This document shows, one piece after another, positions 52,062 through 55,338 of a stretch of DNA of 64,000 bases (position 1 is the stretch's first letter; the number at the start of each line of letters is the position of its first letter). Below the pieces are notes generated by a model. It was given only the letters and a program-made list of their open reading frames with translations. It did no database searches and had not been told where the DNA came from. This DNA comes from Terriglobales bacterium. GTDB lineage: Bacteria > Acidobacteriota > Terriglobia > Terriglobales > Acidobacteriaceae. Made by a program: the position numbers and the translations under genes. The stretch lies in NCBI GenBank assembly GCA_035624455.1, contig DASPRM010000157.1, positions 1-64,000 of the forward strand. The letters are read 5' to 3'.

Positions 52062-53039
52062 CTATTCGATCGGCTCTACCACCACCGCCGCATCCTGCTT
52101 CTCTGGCAACTGCACCAGCACCGTAGCCGACAGCACCAGCACGATCCCGACAATCTGGCTGCCCCGCATCGTCTCTCCGAGAGCAAAAAACGCAATCAGG
52201 ATCGAGAACACCGGCTCCAGGCAACTAGTCACGATCGCCCTGGTTGGATCCAGATTCTGCAGCCCGGCAAAATAAAACGAAAACGGCAGTAGAATCGACA
52301 TGACCGCAAACACCGCCAGAAACAGCCACTGCGCTCCCGAATAGTGCGCAGCCATGATTTTCCACGGCGGATTGATCACCATCCAGAAGAGAGCTGTCCA
52401 AACAAATACATACAAGAGCACTTTCCAGCGGTCGTGGTGATCCAGCAGGCTAGGCGCGTACACGTTGTAAAAAGCGAACGAAAACGCTGCCACCTCTGCG
52501 GCAATCAGTCCAAGGGTATCCATTCGAAAACCACCCTCGTGAAACAAGCCGATTACCAAGCTAATCCCCACAATCGCCAGCGCCACCGAAATCACCTTCA
52601 TCAACGTCGCCCGCTGCCGGCCTCGCAGCACCATGTACAGCAAGACCCATACCGGAGCCGTGTACTGCAGCACAATTGCGGTGCTTACATTTGTTTTCTG
52701 AATAGCCAGATAGTAGAAGTAGTTCGATGCCACCATCCCGAAAATCGCCAGTGCCAACGCGCGAGCAAGGTCGACGCCAGAGAATCGCAATCCCGCTCTC
52801 CCCCGACGCCACAGCAGAATAGGCGCCAATACCAGGAGCGAAATGGTGGTCCGGCTTTGCGCCAGGATCAAAGGATCGATCGCTGGAAGCCCTTTGCCCG
52901 AGGTAAGCCGTCCCGTGAAAGCAGCTCTCCCCAGGCTTGCGGAGACTCCCCAGCACAGTGTCGCTGCGGCAATGAACAGATAGCCGCGCACGGGATGTGG
53001 ATTATTTCGATAGGACCTGATCGATTTCGTCGCGGTCAA
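52062..53039 (-). CDS. EamA (DMT superfamily) transporter
   Basis: A 325-residue membrane protein with ten helices in two EamA repeats. The start of each repeat is visible as YLFIAAATLCWGVSASLGRA and AAEVAAFSFAFYNVYAP, and the end of each carries FGMVASNYFYYLAIQKTNVS and PFSFYFAGLQNLDPTRAIV. The likely export or import substrate is a metabolite, not known. The TTG start at 53039 overlaps the end of the selenocysteine glutaredoxin gene by 38 bp; GTG at 52991 would avoid the overlap. Neither has a good ribosome site, so coupling to that gene is plausible. Confidence 0.85.
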   Translation of the reverse strand: MTATKSIRSYRNNPHPVRGYLFIAAATLCWGVSASLGRAAFTGRLTSGKGLPAIDPLILAQSRTTISLLVLAPILLWRRGRAGLRFSGVDLARALALAIFGMVASNYFYYLAIQKTNVSTAIVLQYTAPVWVLLYMVLRGRQRATLMKVISVALAIVGISLVIGLFHEGGFRMDTLGLIAAEVAAFSFAFYNVYAPSLLDHHDRWKVLLYVFVWTALFWMVINPPWKIMAAHYSGAQWLFLAVFAVMSILLPFSFYFAGLQNLDPTRAIVTSCLEPVFSILIAFFALGETMRGSQIVGIVLVLSATVLVQLPEKQDAAVVVEPIE

Positions 53040-53241
53040 ATCCGATCAATACCTCATCCCCAACCACCAGGGTGGGCGTAGAGCGGCTGTTGTATTTGTA
53101 GACCAAATCTTCGACTGCTGCGGGATCGGCGGAAACATCGCGGTCTTCGTATTCGATACCTCTCTCCGAGAGGTAGGCCTTGATCGTGTGGCAGGGCGGT
53201 CAGCCCGGCTGAGTGAATACAACGACCTTCCTCGGCTTCAT
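53002..53241 (-). CDS. Selenocysteine-containing glutaredoxin (in-frame UGA at the redox site)
   Basis: Reading the minus strand from ATG 53241 to TAA 53002 gives 79 codons with one internal TGA at 53202-53200. The frame encodes MKPRKVVVFTQPG, then TGA, then PPCHTIKAYLSERGIEYEDR, and ends with the glutaredoxin features SRSTPTLVVGDE (cis-proline P56) and LIGFDRDEID. The TGA falls exactly at the first cysteine of the CPPC active site, giving U14-P-P-C17. On both sides the frame is intact and family-like over the whole length. A SECIS-type hairpin follows (separate entry). The product should be a NrdH/Grx-like thiol-disulfide oxidoreductase of 79 residues. It lies 41 bp after osmC and overlaps the EamA gene. 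A sequencing error TGC to TGA is the main alternative. Confidence 0.85.
53157..53175 (-). promoter_or_regulatory. Bacterial SECIS-like hairpin of the selenoprotein gene
   Basis: On the minus strand TACCTCTC, loop GGA, GAGAGGTA form a perfect 8-bp stem. The loop begins 32 nt after the UGA. Bacterial SECIS elements are known to be short hairpins just downstream of the UGA, with a small apical loop that has a G in one of the first two positions, at about 16-37 nt. This hairpin meets all of these points and lies inside the coding sequence, as required in bacteria for SelB binding. Confidence 0.75.
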
Positions 53242-53282
53242 AGCATGCACAATGCCAGCAATCCTACACTAAACAACAATAT

Positions 53283-53687
53283 TCAATCTCCCAACAGCTC
53301 CACCTGCGTCGTGATCTTCGCAGTCCTCTCCAGCATGGCTGAGACAGAACAGTATTTCTCTTTCGAGAGTCGCACCGCATCCTCCACTGCCTTTCGCGAT
53401 ACTGGACCAGTTACCCGATACAGCAAGCGTATGTCCGTGTACACCATGGGTGGATCTTTGGCCCTCTCCCCTTCGGCACTTACTTGCACCCGCGTGAACG
53501 CTTCGCGCTTCTTCCGCAGAATGTTTACTACGTCGTAGGCCGTGCAGGCGCATAACCCGATGAGCACCAGGTCCACGGGACTATTAGCAGTCTTCTCGCT
53601 GCCCGCGTCCACCACAATTGCATGACCGCTGCTCGCCTCGGCGATAAATCGGTCGTTATCTGTCCAACTGGCAGACGCCTTGACCAT
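53283..53687 (-). CDS. OsmC-family peroxiredoxin-like protein
   Basis: A 134-residue OsmC/Ohr-fold protein. The resolving/peroxidatic cysteines are C48 in GLCACTAYDVVN (C46 next to it) and C113 in KEKYCSVSAML, the usual two positions. These proteins reduce organic hydroperoxides using thiols. The gene is 41 bp upstream of the selenocysteine glutaredoxin on the same strand, so a shared redox role is likely but not shown. It ends in LLGD. No regulator of the OhrR type is nearby. Confidence 0.9.
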   Translation of the reverse strand: MVKASASWTDNDRFIAEASSGHAIVVDAGSEKTANSPVDLVLIGLCACTAYDVVNILRKKREAFTRVQVSAEGERAKDPPMVYTDIRLLYRVTGPVSRKAVEDAVRLSKEKYCSVSAMLERTAKITTQVELLGD

Positions 53688-53764: not shown

Positions 53765-55192
53765 TCAACGCCGATTGTCCGTTTGTGGCTCCGGATGAAT
53801 CAGCACCCGAAACAATCCAGGCGCTTCCTGTTTGAAGCGTGTCTCCATGGCCGTCATCACTTCGTGAACGCGCGACAAGGGAAGGTCGTCCTCCATGGTG
53901 CAATGGCACGAAACGTAGAGCTTCCCGCCTACTCGCTTGAACTGCATTTCGTGAACGTCCTTGACCTCCTGAAATTGAGGAGCGATCTCCTTGAGCTTGC
54001 GTTCCAGGGCTGCATTCTGCACCAGTTCATCCCCGGTCTCGATAGTTGCAGGCTCACTCTCAATGTGCGTCAAAATGGTCGAGATCTCCCCAATCTGCTC
54101 GCGTATCTCCTCCTCGAGTTGCGTTACCCGGTCATGCGCCTGTTTCAGCGGAAGAGTCTCCTGCATCTCCAGATGCTGCTCTACGTGCAGTCTGCCATGC
54201 AAGTCCTGAATGCTGATGTCGTGCACTCCCAGGTTATGCCGCGCAGCCACGGCACGGATGCGATCAAAGATGTTTTCGCCGCGTACCGCCCGCGGCAACG
54301 AGTGCACCACTACGTCGGCATCCGGAAGAATGCGGCGCGCTGCTGCCGTCACCTCTCCCACCACCTCCTCCGATTTTTGAAACGTGACATTGCGGCTCAA
54401 GGCCACCGACAAATCCGCAAAGTAGCGGTTGCCTGACCGCCGAATTCGAGCCCGGTCCACCTCCAGCACCCCCGGAACGCCGGAAACCGCCTCGATTACC
54501 TTGCCTCGCGCACCTTTGGGAGCAGCGTCCAGCAGAGCATCAGTGGTCTGCCGTGCCAGGCGCCAACTCACCGAGATCACCACTCCCGCCACAAACAAGG
54601 CTGCGATCGGATCGGCTCTTTCCAGCCACGCGAGTTGGAAACGCTCACCCACCCAAACCAGTGCCAGTCCCAGAATCACCACTGCGCTTGACCAGATGTC
54701 GGTTCGGAAATGTAGCGCATCCGCCTGCAGCGCCTGGCTGTCATACTTATCCGCAATTCGTTGTAGAGCCCGTGATCGCCACCAGTCCACCACCATGGAG
54801 AGTGCCATGACCGCGAACGCCGCCAGCGAAGGTTCGATCTCCACCATGTGAAAGAACAGGCGCTTGATGGCTTCCCAGATGATCCAGGCACAGGTGAGCA
54901 GCAGCAGCCCGGTTTCCAGAAAGGCGGAGAAGCTCTCGATCTTGCCATGGCCGTACTGATGCTCCGCATCCGCCGGCTTGTCCGACACTCGGACCGACAT
55001 CAGCGTGATCACTGCGGCCACCAAATCGAGTCCAGAATGTAGAGCTTCTGAGAGTATGCCCAAGCTGCCCGTGCTTAAACCAACCACAATCTTCAGCACT
55101 GTGACCGCAATCGCCGCCCACACTGAGTTCTGCGCCACGGAGCGTTTCTCCGTGTGCATCGCGCTGCTCGTGAGCGTGGTCGTGTCGGACAT
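53765..55192 (-). CDS. Cation diffusion facilitator (CDF) transporter with extended C-terminus
   Basis: A 475-residue metal transporter. ATG at 55192 was chosen; the frame is open 15 codons further. The six-helix CDF domain has GLSTGSLGILSEALHSGLDL with the metal-site histidine and aspartate, HQYGHGKIESFSAFLE, and ADALHFRTDIWSSAVVILG. Normal CDF proteins have about 300 residues; here the cytoplasmic part is about 270 residues and seems to hold two or three metal-binding/dimerisation domains (VPGVLEVDRARIRRSGNRYF; HNLGVHDISIQDLHGRLHV; FQEVKDVHEMQFKRVGGKLY). Substrates could be zinc, iron or manganese. Confidence 0.88.
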   Translation of the reverse strand: MSDTTTLTSSAMHTEKRSVAQNSVWAAIAVTVLKIVVGLSTGSLGILSEALHSGLDLVAAVITLMSVRVSDKPADAEHQYGHGKIESFSAFLETGLLLLTCAWIIWEAIKRLFFHMVEIEPSLAAFAVMALSMVVDWWRSRALQRIADKYDSQALQADALHFRTDIWSSAVVILGLALVWVGERFQLAWLERADPIAALFVAGVVISVSWRLARQTTDALLDAAPKGARGKVIEAVSGVPGVLEVDRARIRRSGNRYFADLSVALSRNVTFQKSEEVVGEVTAAARRILPDADVVVHSLPRAVRGENIFDRIRAVAARHNLGVHDISIQDLHGRLHVEQHLEMQETLPLKQAHDRVTQLEEEIREQIGEISTILTHIESEPATIETGDELVQNAALERKLKEIAPQFQEVKDVHEMQFKRVGGKLYVSCHCTMEDDLPLSRVHEVMTAMETRFKQEAPGLFRVLIHPEPQTDNRR

Positions 55193-55338
55193 AGCTCTTC
55201 TGATTATCCCTGTTCGCCACTGAAGCAGCCAAGCCAAACCCGCCAGAAACCCGGCCTGGCGCTTCCGAAATCGAGGCGCAGATGTGCTACGATGGCCTCT
55301 CCACCCTAGTTGTGTTTCACGATCGGAGACAATTGAGA

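Follow-up and report, generated by a model that had tools for sequence, protein, structure and literature searches.

Selenocysteine (Sec)-containing glutaredoxins were on record by 2006 at the latest (PMC1794560) and are a characterized family (PMC13188914). Selenoproteins in Acidobacteria are also already known (PMC1794560). The UXX-star proteins are small glutaredoxin-like selenoproteins as well (NF041212, NF041211, and NF041114), and UXX-star family 1 has a UxxT motif (PMC13188914). Among the related proteins with a Cys active site, B. cereus BC3987 is a small CPPC thioredoxin that is related to the Cp9/YruB proteins and to NrdH, and it can reduce class Ib ribonucleotide reductase (PMC3720550). 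NrdH redoxins themselves have a C-[VMI]-Q-C motif and are encoded in an nrdHIEF operon (PMC3720550).

The gene described here lies in the window, by which we mean the whole 64,000-nt stretch of DNA that was analyzed. Its product has much in common with the known Sec-glutaredoxins of Geobacter sulfurreducens, Alkaliphilus, Moorella, and Clostridium oremlandii: the PF00462 fold, Sec as the first residue of UxxC, the existence of Cys homologues, and a bacterial SECIS after the UGA. However, unlike them, it comes from an acidobacterial lineage, has a YruB/BC3987-like sequence with UPPC, and is encoded in a genome without detectable GshB. We found no description of this acidobacterial redoxin in the literature searched, which was only part of what exists. 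The features of the locus are as follows.

52062..52991, minus strand: EamA-family (DMT) transporter, just downstream of the redoxin (PF00892, 2.3e-37); adjoins the redoxin in almost every UGA orthologue
53002..53241, minus strand: predicted Sec-containing YruB/glutaredoxin-fold redoxin gene, 79 amino acids, UPPC, from ATG 53241 to TAA 53002 (frame and profile matches)
53200..53202, minus strand: in-frame UGA, the predicted Sec codon, where the first active-site Cys would be (46 close homologous rows have TGA here, and Cys rows have TGC/TGT in this column)
53157..53175, minus strand: predicted bacterial SECIS hairpin, with an 8-bp stem (53175-53168 with 53164-53157) and a GGA loop (53167-53165), 32 nt after the UGA
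53283..53687, minus strand: OsmC-family protein, just upstream of the redoxin (Pfam PF02566, 3.1e-17); adjoins the redoxin in most UGA orthologues
53765..55237, minus strand: CDF cation-efflux transporter, further upstream in the same conserved block (PF01545/PF16916); syntenic in many orthologues

The original prediction was of a glutaredoxin frame from ATG 53241 to TAA 53002 with a TGA at 53202-53200, exactly at the first Cys of CPPC. When we read the window sequence and its translation, the coordinates, the codon, and the peptide were all reproduced. The frame, on the minus strand at 53241-53002, codes for a protein of 79 residues with a glutaredoxin fold and contains a single in-frame TGA (MKPRKVVVFTQPG-U-PPCHTIKAYLSERGIEYEDRDVSADPAAVEDLVYKYNSRSTPTLVVGDEVLIGFDRDEIDQVLSK); Cys homologues have TGC or TGT in the same alignment column. 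Standard gene calling would end the frame at this TGA, after 13 codons. We place the start provisionally at ATG 53241, in agreement with the N termini of the orthologues; an in-frame GTG at 53250 is an alternative.

With C put for U, the best Pfam match was Glutaredoxin (PF00462, E = 6.9e-16), and the score against the NCBIfam YruB model TIGR02196 was above the cut-off (90.2 versus 88.55 bits). The closest solved structures were 3ZIJ and 3ZIT, which are of the CPPC protein BC3987. Its YTQPDCPPC resembles FTQPGUPPC in the redoxin, but the first active-site residue is Cys in BC3987 and predicted Sec here. The redoxin is also related in sequence to the UXX-star selenoproteins. However, it scored under the cut-off of each UXX-star model (58.8 versus 66 for NF041212, 46.9 versus 100 for NF041211, and 27.7 versus 72 for NF041114), and its UPPC keeps the resolving Cys. 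We also rejected NrdH as its identity, because the motif is UPPC and the neighbors encode OsmC, EamA, and CDF proteins instead.

Our survey of homologues covered 200 genomes sampled from the same family. There were 45 further close homologues with TGA at the Sec codon, whereas others had TGC or TGT. The analyzed set was 46 UGA rows, including the redoxin of the window, and 21 Cys rows. The UGA rows are spread over many genera, and UGA matches were also found in other families of the phylum. We checked close relatives for an ordinary stop followed by a decayed downstream frame, but the TGA was kept and the frame was intact. Among the homologues, the frame downstream of the UGA had a median pairwise dN/dS of 0.19, which indicates purifying selection. 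Therefore, the frame with its TGA is not a product of chance. YruB-like redoxins that are more distant but also contain a UGA, with U-[HLM]-F-C motifs (loci L053, L076, L077, and L078), occur in the window's own family and on a contig from Chloroflexota. In the three own-family rows among them, the GG-loop hairpin was absent at the corresponding place.

A bacterial SECIS model specifies a loop of 3-9 nt, a stem of 4-16 bp, G in the first two loop positions, a distance of 16-37 nt from the UGA, and a minimum free energy (MFE) of -7.5 kcal/mol or below (PMC13188914). The redoxin hairpin satisfies this model with its 8 bp, GGA loop, 32-nt distance, and an MFE within the limit: -13.5 kcal/mol for the 51 nt after the UGA and -20.9 for 67 nt. 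Folding of the whole region was modestly more stable than that of shuffles (z -1.58), and the per-row synonymous fold-energy z averaged -0.90 in UGA rows and -0.22 in Cys rows. Whole-region fold energy is weak evidence, so we tested the specific hairpin, and the SECIS case rests on it. The six inner pairs were Watson-Crick at a mean of 5.85/6 in the UGA rows. When these rows were recoded synonymously, the mean fell to 2.41 (standard deviation, 0.15), and 0/500 recodings reached 5.85 (z 22.9). Cys rows had 1.48 inner pairs, which was not above their own synonymous null. In a selection of 27 distinct rows, pairing was seen in 92.1% of cells and five of the eight pairs changed on both sides; pairing in shuffles and slid controls was well below that observed. 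Therefore, constraint on the nucleotide structure goes beyond that on the protein sequence, and does so only when the UGA is present. UGA and Cys redoxin genes code for similar peptides, but the hairpin is conserved with compensatory changes in the UGA genes and is absent from the Cys genes. An Rfam scan of the window at the gathering threshold gave no match. We also scanned the window for further UGA-plus-hairpin sites and found three others, with read-through peptides that looked non-coding by eye.

The source genome is a 4.39-Mb draft of 166 contigs that is 97.7% complete. A search for selA, selB, selC (tRNA-Sec), and selD had been set beforehand, and all four were found. The tRNA-Sec has a UCA anticodon, and profile searches placed SelB (351 bits), SelA (558 bits), and SelD (360 bits) all over the cut-off. 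The SelD gene (C95:34543-35478, L017) has an in-frame TGA at the N-terminal active site, with a 7-bp hairpin and GGU loop 20 nt downstream, and so SelD itself probably contains Sec. An FdhA-type dehydrogenase gene (L112; contig C75, about 72.6-69.8 kb, minus strand) has a TGA in ...ARV-U-HGPTV... with a hairpin after it, and its product is another probable selenoprotein. We take both TGA positions to be the usual Sec sites of those families. The redoxin, SelD, and FdhA-type genes together indicate that this genome uses UGA as a Sec codon at several sites where Sec is expected.

We detected full SelB in 45/46 UGA genomes but in only 8/25 Cys genomes (Fisher p 1.6e-9, with related genomes included in the counts and phylogenetically independent pairs too few to test). 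The UGA exception, genome G154, had weaker SelB matches only, and assembly gaps are perhaps the reason. G154, an assembly of 330 contigs in which full SelB was not found, has two UGA redoxin copies (L024 and L059). In the Cys group, G144 has a contig-end SelB fragment over the cut-off and G124 has partial matches, so 8/25 is a lower bound. Cys redoxins in genomes with SelB include L044, L081, and L094-L098. Therefore, the Cys form does not need loss of the Sec machinery. A tree of the redoxin family, built from 79 columns only, has about six to eight Sec/Cys changes, at least four of them forced by supported branches.

Machinery, conserved TGA, UGA-specific hairpin, and SelB distribution together argue, by sequence evidence, for a genuine Sec gene, and the reading of this UGA as Sec is strongly supported. 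Our main reading is of a redoxin with a UPPC active site in which Sec, inserted at the UGA via SelB and the hairpin, would be the nucleophile and Cys17 the resolving residue; we give it a probability of about 0.96. SelB carrying Sec-tRNA(UCA) would bind the hairpin just past the UGA, and Sec would be inserted there in place of termination. By analogy with the glutaredoxin/thioredoxin family, the selenolate of Sec14 would then attack disulfides or oxidized thiols, and Cys17 would resolve the mixed selenosulfide. The original prediction of a selenoprotein is upheld by the presence of the Sec machinery, by conservation of the TGA and the downstream frame, and by covariation in the SECIS-type hairpin.

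We weighed this reading against others. UGA readthrough exists in some bacteria, and a near-cognate tRNA (Trp or Cys) or a UGA-sense code could place a residue other than Sec. This is very improbable, because a UGA-reading tRNA-Sec, SelA, SelB, and SelD are present, the SECIS is conserved, nearly all UGA genomes have SelB, and the UGA falls exactly at catalytic Cys/Sec positions in the redoxin, SelD, and FdhA. Early termination by a standard gene caller would also fit a pseudogene, in which a gene that once encoded a CPPC glutaredoxin acquired the TGA by ordinary nonsense mutation. However, the TGA is in 46 close homologous rows from many genera, the frame beyond it is intact and under selection, the hairpin is in UGA rows only, and the genome encodes the Sec machinery. 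Conservation of the TGA together with the intact frame refutes the pseudogene reading, to which we assign hardly any weight. A change of TGC to TGA by sequencing or assembly error might be suspected in a draft of 166 contigs, but dozens of separately assembled genomes have the identical TGA and only UGA genes have the hairpin. Such an error is therefore very unlikely, the least credible of these explanations, and is refuted by the homologues.

The Sec redoxin sits in a conserved block, with the order CDF, OsmC, redoxin, EamA retained in most UGA homologues. The EamA-family gene likely starts at GTG 52991, as judged by eye. This gene context makes the OsmC-family neighbor a possible redox partner.

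The original label of glutaredoxin holds for the fold, but the functional class may instead be a thioredoxin-reductase- or bacillithiol-linked redoxin of the YruB/BC3987 type. BshC is present (474 bits; L109, C139:11366-12922), whereas GshB had no match in the 97.7% complete draft when one family was searched. This suggests a bacillithiol-using organism. Bacillithiol synthesis is predicted for Acidobacteria (PMC6282198). The sole GCS2 protein fits carboxylate-amine ligase/YbdK-type models. A classical glutathione-dependent glutaredoxin would agree with Glutaredoxin as the best Pfam match, and the characterized Clostridium oremlandii Sec-Grx has GSH-bound structures (PMC13188914, reference 109 therein). 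Even so, glutathione dependence seems unlikely here, given BshC without a GshB match, the GCS2 assignment, and BC3987-type thioredoxins as the nearest structures. Because the closest structures are of the BC3987/YruB type and the genome has bshC without detectable gshB, we consider with moderate confidence that thioredoxin reductase or bacillithiol is a likelier electron donor than glutathione. A broader proposal is more tentative, with odds approaching even: a lineage-wide BC3987/YruB-type Sec redoxin that depends not on glutathione but on thioredoxin reductase or bacillithiol, that might reduce OsmC/Prx-type peroxidases, for instance, and in which repeated Sec/Cys exchange is tied to loss of the Sec machinery.

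Sec-glutaredoxins were known already, and what sets this redoxin apart is that its YruB/BC3987-like sequence and its low-molecular-weight thiol background are mildly unusual. The gene is a clear example of one that standard annotation loses although it is real, and it is common to many genera of one bacterial family. Sec and Cys forms occur among related genomes, and the presence of the hairpin tracks that of the UGA; this makes the family a good natural test of Sec gain and loss. Should the donor prove to be bacillithiol or thioredoxin reductase, Sec redoxins would extend beyond glutathione systems.
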